From Acidobacteriaceae bacterium (GTDB lineage: Bacteria > Acidobacteriota > Terriglobia > Terriglobales > Acidobacteriaceae), in the NCBI GenBank assembly GCA_030038195.1, contig JASHPJ010000040.1, forward strand, positions 30,533 to 94,532: a DNA stretch of 64,000 nt, read 5' to 3'. Both the position numbers and the translations under genes were made by a program. The notes below the pieces were generated by a model. That model did not search any database, was not told where the DNA came from, and saw only the letters and a program-made list of their open reading frames with translations. Shown here in pieces: positions 48,760 to 57,021 of the stretch. The first letter of the stretch is position 1. The number at the start of each line of letters is the position of its first letter.

Positions 48760-51700
48760 ATGCTGAAATTAAAGAAGATCTACATCCTCGGCTTCAAGAG
48801 TTTCTGCGACCGCATGGAGCTGACGGTTTCAGGCAGCGGAATTGCCGCGGTGGTTGGGCCCAACGGCTGCGGCAAGTCGAATATTCTCGACGGCGTGAGC
48901 TGGGTGCTGGGCGAGCAGAGCGCCAAAACCCTCCGCGGCACTCAGATGCAGGATGTGATCTTTGCCGGCACCCGCGACCGCAAGCCGCTGGGCATGGCTG
49001 AAGTGACCATCACTATGGTCGATCCCGCGGCTTACGAGGGTCCGGTTCCGGTCGAGCCCGAAGTCGTCGTGGACAACGACGGCCCCGCCGACTGGGACGA
49101 GGATGAGGCTCGCAAGACGCGCGTTGCCGAGGTCGAGGAGATTGTAGCCGCCGAGCAGCCGGGGCAGGTGATCGAAGAAGAGTCAGAAGAAGATGCAGCC
49201 GCGCCGCAGACCGCCGAAGGTCCGCAGCCGGTGGTGCTGAAGATTCGCCGCCGCAGGTTTCAGCGCATGCCGCAGAAGGGCGAGGTGGTGGTTACGCGGC
49301 GGCTGTTCCGTACTGGCGAGAGCGAATACCTGCTCAACGGTAAGCTGTGCCGGCTGCGCGACATCCAGGACATCTTCATGGGCACGGGCCTGGGGCCGGA
49401 GAGTTACGCGATCATCGGGCAGGAGCGCATCGGCCAGATTCTCAGCTCCAAGCCGCACGAGCGGCGGGCGATTGTTGAAGAGGCCGCGGGCATTACCCGC
49501 TTCAAGACCAAGAAGCGGCTGGCGGAGCTGCGCCTTGAGTCCGCCAAGCAGAACCTGGCGCGCGTGGACGACATCTTTGAGGAAGTCACGCGGCAGATGA
49601 ACTCGCTCAAGCGCCAGGCGGCCAAGGCCGAGCGGTTCGCAGCGGTGCGCGACGAACTGCGCGGACAGTTGCGCGTGGTGCTGGCCAGCCGCATGGCGGC
49701 GATGGACGCCGAGCAGACCAGGCTCGACGAGGAGATTGCCGCGCTGAGCGAGCAGGCAAACGCTGCGGCTACCGAGATTGCCGGGCACGAGGCCAGCCAG
49801 CACACGCTCACCGAGCGTGGCTACGAGCTCGAGCGCGAGGGCCAGGCTGCGCAGGCGAGCGCCAATGAAGCCGCCGTCGAGCTGGAGCGCGCCATGGCGC
49901 GCGAGCGCAGCAACACGGAGCGCGTAAGCGAGCTGGAAGCGCGCATTGCTGCAGCCGGCGCGGAGCTGGAACAGACGAAGACGCAGCTTGGTGCGATTGC
50001 GGAAGAACGGGCGCAGCAGCATAGCTTTCTTGAGACGGCGGCCGGCGAGGCGCGCGAGTTCCGCCGGAAGGTGGAAGCGCGGCAGCAGGAGGCGCGCTTT
50101 GCGGCGGAAGAGGTCTTCAGCGCCGAGCGGCAGCTTGAGAGCAGCCGGCGACACGCGATGCATCTGCTCACGCAGGCAGGCAACGCCCACAACCAGACGG
50201 CGCAGGCTGAGGAGAGCCTAGCGGCGCTGGAGCGCGAGGCGGAGCGGCTGGAAGCCGAGATGCGCCAGGCGCGCAACGAGCGCGAAAATCTGGGCGTAGA
50301 GAGCGGACAGGCGCAGCTCAAATTCGAGTCAGCGGCAGAGGCGCTCAAGCGGTTTGCGGAGGAGATCGCCACGCTGCGCGAGACGCTGCAGGTCAAGCGC
50401 GCGGAAGAGAACACCCTGCGCGCACGGGCCAACCAGTTGCGCAGCGAACAGGCCAAGGCCGCGGGCCGCTGCGACTCGCTGCAGTCGCTCATCCGCAATC
50501 ACAGCTACTCGACGGACACGGTGCGCAAGCTGCTGAAGCCCGGCGCGCTGGGCCACGGCATGGCACCCAAAGGCACGCTGGCCGACTTTCTCGAGGTCAG
50601 CGGCCAGCACGAAGGCGTGGTGGACGAGTTCCTGCGTGAAGAGCTGAGCTACGTGGTCGTGGAAAGCTGGGGAGTGGCGGAAGAGGGTGTGCGCCTGCTC
50701 AAGACCAGCGACGGCCGCGCCACATTCCTTATTCATTCGGACGCGCAGGGCGAGCTCTTCGATCCCGGCTCAGGCGCGGTCAACGAGCCGGGCGTCACGC
50801 CACTGCGGGATGCGATCAAGGTGCTCAACGGCTTCGGCCGCTCACTGGAAGGCATCCTGCCCAAGCTGGGCAATGGCTACATCGTGGAGCATCCTGTTGA
50901 AGCGCAGCGACTGGCCACGGCGTATCCGCATGCGTTCTTTCTCACGCCGGATGGCGAGTGCTTCCACAACGCGACAGTCACGGGCGGCAAGCCGGCCAGC
51001 GAGGGTCCGCTGGCGCTGAAGCGCGACCTACGCGAAACCGAGATCCGGCTGGGCAAGCTGGAAGACGACCTTGGCCGGGCGGAGATGGAAGCGGCCGCGC
51101 TGACGCGCGAGATTGAACAGCTCACCGCGCGGCTCGAAGCACAGAGCGAAGAGCGCCGCCGCGCCGAGAGCGAGAGCGCGAACCTGGGCGCAGCGCTCAA
51201 GCAGATGGAGGCCGAAGCGCAGCGCATCGAGCGCCGGCTGCAGGAGTGGACGCTGCAGGCCGCGCGCAACAAGGACGCCTGCGAGGCCAAGCACCAGGCG
51301 ATTGCCCAGAAGCGCGACGAGGCCGCGCGGCTCGAAGCCGAGCACGCGCAAGCCGAAGCGGGCCTGGACACGATGCAGGTACAGCTCGACGAGCTGCGCA
51401 AGAAGCGCGAAGGGCTGCAGCAGGAGGCCGCGCAGCTCACCGCCGAGCTGGCCGGGCTGGAAGAGCGGCGCCGCGGTGCCGAAGCCGCGTTCCAACGCAT
51501 CGACCGGCTGCACGCCGATCTTGAGCGCCGCGTGCTGGCCATCGAGCAGCAGCGGGCCGCAGCCACGGCCGAGCGCGAGCAGCGCATCCACGAAAGCGCC
51601 ACGCTGGCCGAACGCCAGAAGGAGCTTGCCGCCGCGCGCGCAGAAGCGCTCACGCTGGCGCAGGCCATCGCCGAGCGGGCGCAGGCGCTGCGGCAGCAGC

Positions 51701-52572
51701 TTGCCGAGATGGAGACGCAGCTCAAAACCGGCCGCATTGCGCTCGACCAGTTGCGCGAGAGCCGTGCCGCGCGCTCGAGCGAACGGGCCAAGCTGAAGGC
51801 CGATCTGGAGCACCTGGAGGCAAGCTGCCTTGCGGAAGTGAATGTCGAGGCGGCGGTCCTGCGCGGCGACCGGGAGATCGTGCACCTGGCCGGCGAGGAA
51901 CTGGCTGCCGAAGAAGAGACCTGCCGCGGCCTGCGCCAGCGCATGGAGCAGATGGGCCCAGTAAACATGATGGCACTCGATGAGTACAAGGAGACGGCCG
52001 AGCGGCATGCGTTCCTGGAGACGCAGCGCAAAGACCTCATCGAATCCATCGAGAACACGCAGGAGACGATCAAGGAGATCGACCAGATTTCACGCACCAA
52101 GTTTGACGAGGCCTTTGCGCGAATCAACGAAAACTTCGGGCAGGTTTTCGCGCAGCTCTTCTACGGCGGCCACGCCTTTCTGCGGGTCACGGACGAGGAG
52201 AACCAGGCCGAGAGCGGACTGGACATCGTGGCTTCGCCCCCGGGCAAGAAGCTGCAGAACGTGCTGCTGCTCTCGGGCGGCGAAAAGGCTCTGACCGCGC
52301 TGGCGCTGCTGGTGGCCATCTTCCAGTTCCAGCCGAGCCCCTTCTGCGTGCTGGACGAGGTAGACGCTCCGCTGGACGAAACCAACGTGGGCCGTTTTGC
52401 AGAGCTGATGCGCACCTTGAGCAAGGAAACGCAGTTCCTCGTCGTCACCCACTCCAAGCGCATGATGCAGGCGGCAGACATCATCTACGGCGTAACGATG
52501 CAGGAGCCGGGCGTGTCGAAGGTGGTGAGCGTGCGGCTCGGGCACCACGAGCAGCAGCGGGCAACAGCATAA
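48760..52572 (+). CDS. smc: Chromosome segregation protein SMC
   Basis: A 1270-residue SMC ATPase. Walker A GPNGCGKSNILD (residue 34), two long coiled coils rich in Glu/Ala/Gln/Arg, and a hinge at about residues 595-745 (GTLADFLEVSGQHEGVVDEF). The C-terminal signature is LLSGGEKALTALALL near 1170 and Walker B FCVLDEVDAPLD near 1195. The N-terminal head has an acidic insertion of about 75 residues (88-162: DWDEDEARK, EEESEEDAAAPQ) between strands that are normally adjacent. GGAGAG precedes the ATG. scpA and scpB are not nearby. Confidence 0.95.
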   Translation: MLKLKKIYILGFKSFCDRMELTVSGSGIAAVVGPNGCGKSNILDGVSWVLGEQSAKTLRGTQMQDVIFAGTRDRKPLGMAEVTITMVDPAAYEGPVPVEPEVVVDNDGPADWDEDEARKTRVAEVEEIVAAEQPGQVIEEESEEDAAAPQTAEGPQPVVLKIRRRRFQRMPQKGEVVVTRRLFRTGESEYLLNGKLCRLRDIQDIFMGTGLGPESYAIIGQERIGQILSSKPHERRAIVEEAAGITRFKTKKRLAELRLESAKQNLARVDDIFEEVTRQMNSLKRQAAKAERFAAVRDELRGQLRVVLASRMAAMDAEQTRLDEEIAALSEQANAAATEIAGHEASQHTLTERGYELEREGQAAQASANEAAVELERAMARERSNTERVSELEARIAAAGAELEQTKTQLGAIAEERAQQHSFLETAAGEAREFRRKVEARQQEARFAAEEVFSAERQLESSRRHAMHLLTQAGNAHNQTAQAEESLAALEREAERLEAEMRQARNERENLGVESGQAQLKFESAAEALKRFAEEIATLRETLQVKRAEENTLRARANQLRSEQAKAAGRCDSLQSLIRNHSYSTDTVRKLLKPGALGHGMAPKGTLADFLEVSGQHEGVVDEFLREELSYVVVESWGVAEEGVRLLKTSDGRATFLIHSDAQGELFDPGSGAVNEPGVTPLRDAIKVLNGFGRSLEGILPKLGNGYIVEHPVEAQRLATAYPHAFFLTPDGECFHNATVTGGKPASEGPLALKRDLRETEIRLGKLEDDLGRAEMEAAALTREIEQLTARLEAQSEERRRAESESANLGAALKQMEAEAQRIERRLQEWTLQAARNKDACEAKHQAIAQKRDEAARLEAEHAQAEAGLDTMQVQLDELRKKREGLQQEAAQLTAELAGLEERRRGAEAAFQRIDRLHADLERRVLAIEQQRAAATAEREQRIHESATLAERQKELAAARAEALTLAQAIAERAQALRQQLAEMETQLKTGRIALDQLRESRAARSSERAKLKADLEHLEASCLAEVNVEAAVLRGDREIVHLAGEELAAEEETCRGLRQRMEQMGPVNMMALDEYKETAERHAFLETQRKDLIESIENTQETIKEIDQISRTKFDEAFARINENFGQVFAQLFYGGHAFLRVTDEENQAESGLDIVASPPGKKLQNVLLLSGGEKALTALALLVAIFQFQPSPFCVLDEVDAPLDETNVGRFAELMRTLSKETQFLVVTHSKRMMQAADIIYGVTMQEPGVSKVVSVRLGHHEQQRATA

Positions 52573-52602: not shown

Positions 52603-55029
52603 TTATTCTTCGCGCAGCGTCTGTGCGGGAGCAATGCCGGCCACGCGCAGGGCCGGAACGATGGTGGCAACCAGCGATACCACGGCGAAGACAGACACGA
52701 CGGAAAGAATCGTGAGCCCGTCGTAGACAGCTACGCCGTAAAGCACATTGCGTAAGACCCGCAGCACCCCGGCACACAAAACCAGGCCCAGGATGAGCCC
52801 ACATGCCGACGCCATGATGCCGGGGGTCCCGACATGAATCATGGCGCGGCGAATCGATGAGCCAAGGGCAATGCGAATGCCGATTTCGCGTGTCTTCTGC
52901 GCCACCACATTGGCCACGAGCGAAAAGATTCCGACCGCGCTCATCAGCAGCGCCAGCCCTGCCATGGCGCCCAGCAGCGCCACTTCAATGCGCTGCATCG
53001 CCAGAGTGCGCGCCAGCACGTCGCTCATGCTGTAGAAACCGGAGAAAGGCAGGCCCGGATCGACGCCGGCCATGGCGCGCTGCATCTGCTCCGTCAGTCC
53101 CTGCACCGGCCCCGCGACGCGCACAATCCAACTGGGCTGGAACCAGGTGTGAATAAGCGCGAGGTACTGCGGCTGCACCATCTGTGCAGCCGGAACGTAC
53201 ATCGTCTCTTCGGTCTGCAGCGGGCCGACCGGGTTGAGACCAGACAAAAGCTGGACATCGCCTACTACGCCCACGATGACGACGCCCTTGTTCAGCGTGC
53301 GTCCAACGGGGTTGGCGCCGTGATAAAACCTCTCGGCAAACGAGCGGTTGACAATGACGACCGGCTGCGTGTTGGGCCCGTCTGAGCTTGTGAATGCGCG
53401 TCCCGCGAGAAGCGGAATCCGGAGAGTTGCAAAATAGCCGGGCGTCACGTAGACAAAATCCGAGCCCACGTGCTCGCCGGCTTCCTTGCCGTCCGCGAGC
53501 GTTACCTGGTCGTTCAGAGTTCGCTCGAATGGAAGCGTGAGCCCAACGGCAGCGCTCTCCACACCGGGGATGCGAAGCATCGACGCGGTGCTTTCTGCGA
53601 GCAGCTTGCGAAATGCCGGCGGATCGCTGAAGCGCACATCGTTGAGCGAGGCCTTGGCCGTCATGACTCCCTGCGGCACAAACCCCGGCGGCAACGTTTC
53701 CAGATGGACAAGAGTGCGGATCAGCAGGCCTGAACCCGCCAGCAGAACAACGGTAAGCGCCACTTCACCGGCAATCAATGACTGCCGCAGACCCAGGCGC
53801 TCTGTGCTTGCCGCGCTGCGGCTTGCCAGCGCGGAGCGCAGATCGATCCTGTGCGTGGCAAGCGCCGGCAACATGCCAAACAGAATGCTGGTGAGTACGG
53901 AGACAATCAGCGTAAAGGCAAGCACCCGGCCATCGAGATGCACGCCGGCAACCGGCAGGAATCCAAGGGGCAGCATGGCCAGCAGACCGCGCAGCGCCAG
54001 GAAGCCCACGGCGATGCCAGCCACACCGCCGCCCACGGCGAGCACCAGGTTTTCCATCCAGAGCTGCCGCTCAATCTGCCATCGCGAGGCGCCCAGGGCC
54101 AGCCGTGTAGCAATGTCCGGCGTGCGCCGCAGCATGCGCACCAACGTAAGCCCGGCAAGATTGGCGCAGGCGATCAGCAGGATCAGTCCCGCGGCGAACA
54201 TCAGCGCCAACGCCTTGGGACGCAGCGTGGCAGTCTCGCCTTGCTGCAGCGACCGGGAGTAAAACGATATCCTCGCGGCGCTGTTTTCGTTCGCCAGCAG
54301 CGCCGCTTCTCCAGCCCAGGCGCGATTGATCTCCGCATCTGCCTGCCGCCAGTTGGCTCCGTCACGCAAACGGGTGATGACCTGGTAATTCGTGCCTCCG
54401 CCCTCGCCCTGCGTGCCGGGCTGCAGCGCCGTGTAAACGTCGGCATTTTGAGGCGTGGTTGCCGATTGTGGCAGAATGCCTACCACGGTGTACATCTCGC
54501 CCCGGAGATGGATCGCCTGCCCCACAATGCTGCCGTCGCTGCTGAAGATGTCGCGCCAGAGGCTGTAGCTCAAGATAGCGGCGTTGGGTCCGTGCGGCGT
54601 ATCCTCGGCTGCGGAAAAGCTGCGGCCGGCGGCCAGGTGGATACCCAGCACGTCAAAGTAGTGCTGCGAGACGCGCGCATCCTGCACATAGGCCACGCGC
54701 ACGCCGGCCTGAAGATTGACGCCCGCGGTTGAGCCGGAGACGGCCGAGATGAGCGAAGGCACATTGTCGCGCAGCAGCTCCCATTGCTCTCCATTGATTG
54801 CATGAAGCCCGTCATACGGTCTTTGCCTTTCGACGTGACGGAAGATCGTTCCCATGCGCTCCGGATGCGGATAGGGCAAACTTTCGAGCAGGAGCGCGTT
54901 CACGATCGAAAAGATGGCCGTATTTGCGCCGATAGCCAGAGACAGGGTAATCATAACGGCCGCGGTAAATCCCGGATTGCGGCGCAACTGCCGGATGGCA
55001 AATCGCAGATTCAGCGCAAATGTCCGCAT
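52603..55029 (-). CDS. FtsX/MacB-type permease, ADOP family
   Basis: An 808-residue protein. It starts NLRFAIRQLRRNPGFTAAVMITLSLAIGANTAIFS, the characteristic opening of the acidobacterial duplicated orphan permeases. A MacB periplasmic core domain follows, then two FtsX-like membrane blocks (FAAGLILLIACANLAGLTLVRML and LLGAMAGLALLMSAVGIFSLVANVVAQ). There is no ABC ATPase gene adjacent, as expected for this orphan type. AGGAGGGG lies before the ATG. Substrate unknown. Confidence 0.92.
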   Translation of the reverse strand: MRTFALNLRFAIRQLRRNPGFTAAVMITLSLAIGANTAIFSIVNALLLESLPYPHPERMGTIFRHVERQRPYDGLHAINGEQWELLRDNVPSLISAVSGSTAGVNLQAGVRVAYVQDARVSQHYFDVLGIHLAAGRSFSAAEDTPHGPNAAILSYSLWRDIFSSDGSIVGQAIHLRGEMYTVVGILPQSATTPQNADVYTALQPGTQGEGGGTNYQVITRLRDGANWRQADAEINRAWAGEAALLANENSAARISFYSRSLQQGETATLRPKALALMFAAGLILLIACANLAGLTLVRMLRRTPDIATRLALGASRWQIERQLWMENLVLAVGGGVAGIAVGFLALRGLLAMLPLGFLPVAGVHLDGRVLAFTLIVSVLTSILFGMLPALATHRIDLRSALASRSAASTERLGLRQSLIAGEVALTVVLLAGSGLLIRTLVHLETLPPGFVPQGVMTAKASLNDVRFSDPPAFRKLLAESTASMLRIPGVESAAVGLTLPFERTLNDQVTLADGKEAGEHVGSDFVYVTPGYFATLRIPLLAGRAFTSSDGPNTQPVVIVNRSFAERFYHGANPVGRTLNKGVVIVGVVGDVQLLSGLNPVGPLQTEETMYVPAAQMVQPQYLALIHTWFQPSWIVRVAGPVQGLTEQMQRAMAGVDPGLPFSGFYSMSDVLARTLAMQRIEVALLGAMAGLALLMSAVGIFSLVANVVAQKTREIGIRIALGSSIRRAMIHVGTPGIMASACGLILGLVLCAGVLRVLRNVLYGVAVYDGLTILSVVSVFAVVSLVATIVPALRVAGIAPAQTLREE

Positions 55030-55458: not shown

Positions 55459-55497
55459 AAAAAATCACCTCCGAAGGAAACCGTCACTTCGGAGGTG
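55459..55497 (-). terminator. Rho-independent terminator of the structured RNA
   Basis: On the reverse strand CACCTCCGAAG pairs perfectly with CTTCGGAGGTG (10-nt loop) and is followed by ATTTTTT. No protein gene ends here; the sequence just upstream on that strand folds into a long rod, so it likely ends an RNA gene. Confidence 0.75.
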
Positions 55498-55645
55498 CTT
55501 GCAGTGGAACACAAGAATGGATTGCTCGGGAACCAGTAGCCGGCGCTGGAGGTCGGTAGCGCGCGACTACTGGTGGTCCCCGCACTAACGAAGCGAGCCG
55601 CGGCTTCCCCGTTCCACTGCTGCCTCGTGTCGCCCGGCTCAAAGA
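55498..55645 (-). ncRNA. ssrS: Structured RNA candidate, 6S-like rod with central bubble
   Basis: The closing stem GCAGTGGAAC (55501-55510) pairs exactly with 55611-55620. After a large asymmetric bubble (17 and 30 nt), ACCAGTAG (55532-55539) pairs with 55567-55574, extended by GGGA/TCCC past a 2-nt bulge, then an apical GCGCT/AGCGC stem. The longer bubble strand can form a small GAAGC/GCTTC hairpin. A stem, open bubble, stem plan of this size next to a purine gene recalls 6S RNA. The ends are estimates. The remainder of 55030-55458 holds nothing I can name. Confidence 0.45.
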
Positions 55646-55823
55646 GAGCTATATGACTTACGTGCCCTCCGAGCCCTGTTGACGAATTGAGTTTCGCTTA
55701 ATCGCAAATTGGCGTCCGTGATGGCCGTCACACATGTTTGGGTCACCTTCAAAAAAATACGCAGGAGCAGGATGCGCGTTCTTCGGGAGCTAAAAAAGCC
55801 CCATTGATTTTGTGCAGCCTGGT

Positions 55824-56127: not shown

Positions 56128-57021
56128 GTGACCGCTTTATTGACGACGAACCTGGGTGAAACGCCGCTGGTGGGCCGCGGTAAAGTGCGCGATCTGTACG
56201 CCGTGGGCGACGCGCTGCTGCTGGTGGCCACGGACCGCATCTCGGCTTTCGATCATGTGCTGGCGACCGGCATTCCGGGCAAGGGAAAGATTCTTACCGA
56301 GATCTCGCTCTTCTGGCTCGGGTTGCTGGCCGATCTTGTGCCCAGCCACCTGATCACGGCGGAGGTGAGCGAGTATCCGGCTGCGCTCAGGCCCTATGCC
56401 GATCAGCTCGCCGGTCGCTCGATGCTGGTAAAGCGGGCCATGATGTTTCCGGTGGAGTGTGTAGCGCGCGGCTACCTGGCGGGATCGGGGTGGAAAGAGT
56501 ATCGCGAGCGTGGCACGGTTTGCGGCATTTCCCTTCCCGGCGGGCTGCTGGACGGTTCGCGGCTGCCGGAGCCTGTCTTTACGCCGGCCACCAAGAGCCA
56601 GGATGGCGCACACGACGAGAACATCTCTTTCGAAGCTACGGAGGCGCTGATGGGCGCGCAGGACGCCGCCGAGCTGCGCCGGCTGACGCTGGCCCTCTAC
56701 CAGCGCGCCAGCCAGCACGCCGAGTCGCGCGGGCTGATTCTGGCCGACACGAAATTTGAGTTCGGCCGCACCGGGGAAGGCATTCTCCTTGCCGATGAAG
56801 TGCTTACGCCGGACTCCTCGCGCTACTGGGAAGCAGAGAGCTGGAAACCCGGAGGAGCGCAGCCTTCGTTCGACAAGCAGTACGTGCGCGACTATCTCGA
56901 GTCGATCCGCTGGAACAAGCAGGCGCCCGCGCCGGGCCTGCCGGACGAGGTGGTGGAGCGCACGCTGGGCAAGTACATGGAAGCCTTTCGCCGATTGACC
57001 GGACGCGGTATCCAACTGTAG
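56128..57021 (+). CDS. purC: SAICAR synthetase
   Basis: A 297-residue protein from GTG 56128, with GAGGAA 11 bases upstream. It catalyses ATP-dependent addition of aspartate to CAIR in purine synthesis. GRGKVRDLYAVGDALLLVATDRISAFD is the family N-terminus; KRAMMFPVECVARGYLAGSGW and LILADTKFEFG also match. Length fits the longer, eukaryote-like branch. It is followed by cvpA after 19 bp. Confidence 0.95.
   Translation: MTALLTTNLGETPLVGRGKVRDLYAVGDALLLVATDRISAFDHVLATGIPGKGKILTEISLFWLGLLADLVPSHLITAEVSEYPAALRPYADQLAGRSMLVKRAMMFPVECVARGYLAGSGWKEYRERGTVCGISLPGGLLDGSRLPEPVFTPATKSQDGAHDENISFEATEALMGAQDAAELRRLTLALYQRASQHAESRGLILADTKFEFGRTGEGILLADEVLTPDSSRYWEAESWKPGGAQPSFDKQYVRDYLESIRWNKQAPAPGLPDEVVERTLGKYMEAFRRLTGRGIQL

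Follow-up and report, generated by a model that had tools for sequence, protein, structure and literature searches.

A strongly conserved, undescribed small RNA family of soil Acidobacteria with two invariant loops and a CRP-type promoter site

In the 64,000-nucleotide stretch of Acidobacteriaceae DNA that we analysed (the window), the minus strand of a 1.1-kb gap beside purC carries a structured RNA that ends in an intrinsic terminator. The first-pass annotation had drawn attention to this gap as one free of protein genes, and it does run without one from the start of a permease gene at 55029 to purC at 56128, the identity of purC being confirmed by its SAICAR_synt match. The features of the locus, in order of coordinates, are these.

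48760..52572, plus strand: smc, the convergent neighbour in most relatives (SMC_N and SMC_hinge matches; synteny)
52603..55029, minus strand: MacB/FtsX-type permease between the RNA and smc (Pfam match)
55459..55683, minus strand: gene of the small RNA, whose transcript would be about 225 nt long with its 5' end at 55683 (covariance models R1/R2 and terminator)
55459..55497, minus strand: P5, an intrinsic terminator followed by a U tail (13 pairs; in alignment A2, 99.2% of cells pair)
55498..55515, minus strand: variable hairpin P4 (CUUGU/GCAAG), seen in the genus alignment A2 and weakly tested
55501..55620, minus strand: species-specific closing stem of a rod (55610-55620 with 55501-55511; all 11 pairs form in this species, 1-7 of them in 18 relatives)
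55528..55580, minus strand: hairpin P3 (in helices 4 and 5, double-sided changes at 19 of 19 pairs)
55548..55556, minus strand: P3 loop CCGACCUCC, of anti-Shine-Dalgarno type (GACCUCC unchanged across 72 of 72 distinct sequences, with a median probability of 0.94 of being unpaired)
55588..55628, minus strand: hairpin P2 (14 pairs, 8 with double-sided changes in alignment A4)
55604..55610, minus strand: P2 loop GGGGAAG (unchanged across 72 of 72 distinct sequences, with a median probability above 0.99 of being unpaired)
55629..55683, minus strand: 5' hairpin P1 (compensatory changes in most pairs)
55690..55695, minus strand: -10-like box GAAACT at -12 to -7 (GAnACT in nearly all homologues at a fixed distance; consensus resemblance only)
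55718..55732, minus strand: CRP-type palindrome TGTGACGGCCATCAC, centred at -41.5 (fixed spacing to the first base of the model in homologues)
56128..57021, plus strand: purC, the divergent upstream neighbour (SAICAR_synt, E 1.6e-72; synteny)

The covariance models R1 and R2 match the minus strand at 55526-55683, and the terminator with its U tail finishes at 55459. The terminator described earlier for the reverse strand is real: a hairpin of CACCTCCGAAG and CTTCGGAGGTG followed by T6, at 55497-55459. The other end of the element had been set about 38 nt too short, because the conserved 5' hairpin reaches 55683, which promoter spacing also marks as the probable start. The rod that had been described is likewise present in the window's own sequence, which folds into an 11-pair closing stem joining GCAGTGGAACG (55620-55610) to TGTTCCACTGC (55511-55501), an asymmetric interior loop, a long terminal stem reaching 55528, and the terminator with six U; its folding energy beats that of 200 of 200 dinucleotide shuffles (z = -4.2). 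The closing stem is found in 1 of 19 aligned species, so the rod is not the conserved fold. The consensus of the oriented alignments consists instead of P1, P2, P3, the variable P4 and the terminator. In silico, the rod of the window's own sequence is 4.8 kcal/mol better than P2; the evolutionary record supports P2, not the rod.

Covariation in this consensus fold is extensive. Among 47 distinct sequences (alignment A4), 96.8% of cells are paired, and double-sided changes are seen in 41 of the 48 core pairs, against a mean of 12.9 in shuffled controls and 13-19 in slid controls; among 72 distinct sequences (A5), 97.6% of cells are paired and 36 of 48 pairs have such changes. Both alignments were fitted to a model, which favours the structure, and the MAFFT alignment A2 agrees (98.6% of cells paired, 12 of 61 double-sided versus 3.4), being fitted to no model although its structure was derived from A2 itself. 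A pseudoknot between the GGGG loop and CCCC after P3 was considered and rejected, since in the alignment, judged by eye, CCC covaries with GGG of P3 instead. The pattern of change also bears on whether the locus might be a small protein gene or a dual-function RNA with a short open reading frame, as an ATG near the 5' end of many species would allow. This is most improbable, for the ATG is absent from several species, the window's included, loop indels of 1-4 nt break any frame, and the changes keep pairing rather than codons.

The suggestion of 6S RNA arose because of the species-specific rod, and an RNA of this kind, or a second 6S paralogue binding RNA polymerase holoenzyme, would suit the rod-like minimum-energy fold of one species, a length within the range and purC as a neighbour. 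We nevertheless consider it extremely unlikely. The Rfam 6S model (RF00013) has no match in the region, either at its gathering score or at E values up to 10, and the consensus is a row of hairpins without the conserved closing stem, central bubble and terminal stem of a 6S rod. The same model finds one place in this genome, on another contig and directly 3' of zapA (45.0 bits, E 1.3e-7, near the gathering threshold of 46.4). This is the classic setting of 6S: zapA is followed by it in beta- and gamma-proteobacteria (PMC7641849). This second locus (G000:C100:10884-11069, L001) is probably the true 6S RNA of the window's genome. Across the genus, 14 of 25 genomes, including this one, have 6S matches, zapA lies beside 6S in 6 of 12 loci examined, and relatives carrying the small RNA also have a separate 6S match. 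Put to two of the tests that had been proposed for it, a covariance-model match and compensatory changes in relatives, the first-pass annotation is refuted as to 6S and confirmed in its broader alternative of some other structured RNA, which is now strongly supported by conservation, covariation, and an accompanying promoter and terminator.

Nothing in Rfam accounts for this element. A cmscan of the window with all families of Rfam 15 returned nothing at the gathering score, and no family in the library matches the small RNA or its relatives; weak matches to sul1 and Ysr224 (about 14 bits) were set aside as chance. The element is an undescribed, strongly conserved small RNA family of soil Acidobacteria, new to the databases searched, and we have hardly any doubt that the family exists. 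By blastn, 21 of 25 genomes of the genus have it, counting the window's own, and identity in the relatives is 73-84%. Larger samples were searched under stricter filters and may therefore miss distant members: model R1, run on 249 genomes of the order, found the RNA in 27 genomes of the genus and in 6 that belong to two sister genera, model R2, run on 300 genomes of the family, found it in 28 genomes from 4 of 79 genera, and a covariance-model search of 396 genomes of the phylum gave no match outside Acidobacteriaceae. One class-level match (G365, 28 bits) was rejected because it lacks promoter, loops and terminator. In an exact-pattern search, all 62 records found in named genomes were Acidobacteria, including Occallatibacter savannae AB23 and Terracidiphilus metagenome-assembled genomes. 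As far as these sequence searches reach, the small RNA is present in most genomes of the window's genus and in three sister genera of Acidobacteriaceae, with no convincing member elsewhere in the sampled phylum.

The smc gene converges on the RNA in most loci where the contig reaches, and purC is divergent in nearly all homologous loci, in keeping with the proximity to purC remarked on earlier. The RNA might be supposed to act in cis, as a riboswitch or attenuator in the leader of the downstream permease, given that a terminator follows the structured region, or as a regulator of purC, its divergent neighbour almost everywhere. The permease, however, has no match at that position in the relatives compared, where the downstream gene is usually the convergent smc; because that gene is convergent or unconserved, the small RNA is not a leader. 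The RNA is, moreover, directed away from purC, and second copies adjoin unrelated genes, which leaves a cis role improbable.

These second copies, found in three genomes (L079, L081 and L082, in G119, G116 and G083), are diverged and lie at unrelated loci, adjoining cysteine synthase-like, glycoside-hydrolase-like, and threonine synthase-like and lexA-like genes (names assigned by eye). They keep both invariant loops and a recognizable CRP-type palindrome, with a mismatch or a one-base shift; the RNA gene is therefore self-contained. Its putative promoter and terminator are fixed in homologues independently of the neighbours, as expected of a stand-alone gene, and the sister genera still have a terminator, of different sequence, in the same place.

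The promoter region points to control by a protein of the CRP/FNR family. Counting from the inferred start, the palindrome TGTGA-N6-TCAC is centred exactly at -41.5 in 41 of 47 homologues and at -42.5 in 3, and carries one mismatch in 3. At CRP-dependent promoters a site resembling TGTGA-N6-TCACA is expected at -41.5 or -61.5, and class II promoters have just the geometry seen here, with the start at the first base of the model (55683). The site travels with the small RNA, also at L030, L037 and L075, where purC lies 1-2 kb off. The window's genome encodes two CRP-family proteins (L200 and L201) with the recognition helix RETVTR, which fits the pattern RE..R; that of E. coli CRP is RETVGR. Taken together, CRP-type control of the small RNA seems likely. 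The two proteins (G000:C106 and C64) also display an FNR-like N-terminal cysteine pattern (CxxC...C). Such cysteines could hold a cluster, and the proteins could sense oxygen or NO.

Two loops of the RNA, GACCUCC and GGGGAAG, are the same in 72 of 72 sequences and predicted to be single-stranded, as would be expected of a conserved unpaired seed, whereas the mean identity of the stem columns is 89%. CCUCC is the anti-Shine-Dalgarno core. Hfq is encoded in 30 of 31 genomes, the window's included. Since the CCUCC loop is invariant, Hfq is present and CsrA was not found, the likeliest function is repression in trans at ribosome-binding sites. We therefore favour, with a probability of roughly 0.6, a stand-alone trans-acting small RNA that is activated by a CRP-type protein, possibly dependent on Hfq, and similar to CyaR in placing a CCUCC loop on ribosome-binding sites. 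The anti-Shine-Dalgarno action itself we hold to be reasonably probable.

The mechanism that we propose builds on features read from the genomes, namely the conserved structure, the promoter site at fixed spacing, the terminator, the invariant loops predicted to be unpaired, and the genes for Hfq and CRP-type regulators; from these we infer transcription, binding by CRP and Hfq, base pairing and repression. A CRP/FNR-family activator would bind TGTGA-N6-TCAC at -41.5 and bring in RNA polymerase in the manner of class II CRP promoters. The small RNA would then fold into P1 to P3, the variable P4 and the terminator, and the exposed CGACCUCC loop of P3 would pair, probably aided by Hfq, with the Shine-Dalgarno regions of its target mRNAs and so block their translation. 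The GGGGAAG loop of P2 may be a further point of contact, for a pyrimidine-rich target or for a protein. Because CCUCC alone fits very many mRNAs, specificity must come from flanking bases. The complement of the nine-base loop, GGAGGTCGG, showed no enrichment near ATG over the reversed pattern in 6 of 7 genomes, and no orthologous gene recurs among the matches from the seven. G009 (Occallatibacter savannae) differs from the other six: GGAGGTCGG-N2-9-ATG has 14 occurrences there and the reversed control has 2.

Alternatively, the RNA might act mainly through a protein, as a decoy or scaffold for an Hfq-like or unknown RNA-binding protein at the GGGGAAG loop, rather than by pairing with mRNA. 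GGGGAAG is as invariant as GACCUCC, and the window's own genome has three Hfq-domain matches. CsrA is the classic GGA-binding partner, yet it was found in 0 of 6 genomes, so that a CsrB-type decoy for CsrA was rejected, and pairing accounts better for a CCUCC loop that is both exposed and invariant; we therefore rate action through a protein as unlikely, though well ahead of a cis role or 6S RNA. Of the three Hfq-domain matches (G000:C8:22084, C25:2058 and C63:39360), one is strong, at 100 bits, and the other two are weak, at about 30 bits; this pattern recurs in most genomes of the genus.

Extending the preferred reading of a trans-acting, pairing RNA, one could speculate that this is a lineage-specific global regulator of Acidobacteriaceae, which has two distinct loops that never vary, an anti-Shine-Dalgarno one and a purine-rich one, and which, under a CRP/FNR-family protein with N-terminal cysteines, links a signal from the environment, be it cAMP, oxygen or NO, to the translation of many mRNAs. 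The loops might contact target and partner, or each other between molecules, in a manner without parallel among known small RNAs. We offer this broader idea tentatively, as a doubtful possibility.

Hardly any small RNAs are known from Acidobacteria. A review of 2022 lists 4 annotated ones in the entire phylum, compared with 345 in Proteobacteria (PMC9029176). The family described here is well defined, with promoter, terminator, structure and putative seed across dozens of genomes, and its presence in the isolate Occallatibacter savannae AB23 makes CRP-controlled riboregulation outside Proteobacteria directly testable.

Comparison with known systems places the family in context. Acido-1 and Acido-Lenti-1 (RF01686, RF01687) were likewise reported as structured RNAs from Acidobacteria (PMC2864571), but neither matches the small RNA or its relatives in Rfam. 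6S RNA (RF00013) shares its size class and, in the window's species only, a rod-like predicted fold; its model gives no match, the consensus fold is different, and the genome has a separate 6S candidate after zapA. The Rhizobiales anti-Shine-Dalgarno RNAs alpha-r14 and NfeR1 share a conserved CCUCC-type motif in unpaired loops on varying stems. NfeR1 carries three identical CCUCCUCCC motifs in three hairpins and represses by covering ribosome-binding sites with these loops (PMC10746234), whereas in the RNA described here GACCUCC occupies a single loop and the other loop, GGGGAAG, is different; we saw no homology to these Rhizobiales RNAs. Enterobacterial CyaR, which is CRP-activated and covers the ribosome-binding site of ompX (PMC11795201), has no sequence, structural or Rfam match to our RNA, which at about 225 nt has three conserved large hairpins, a class II site position inferred from spacing, and a distribution confined to Acidobacteriaceae. 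The two are nonetheless alike in their CRP-type control, intrinsic terminator, exposed Shine-Dalgarno-complementary sequence and available Hfq.
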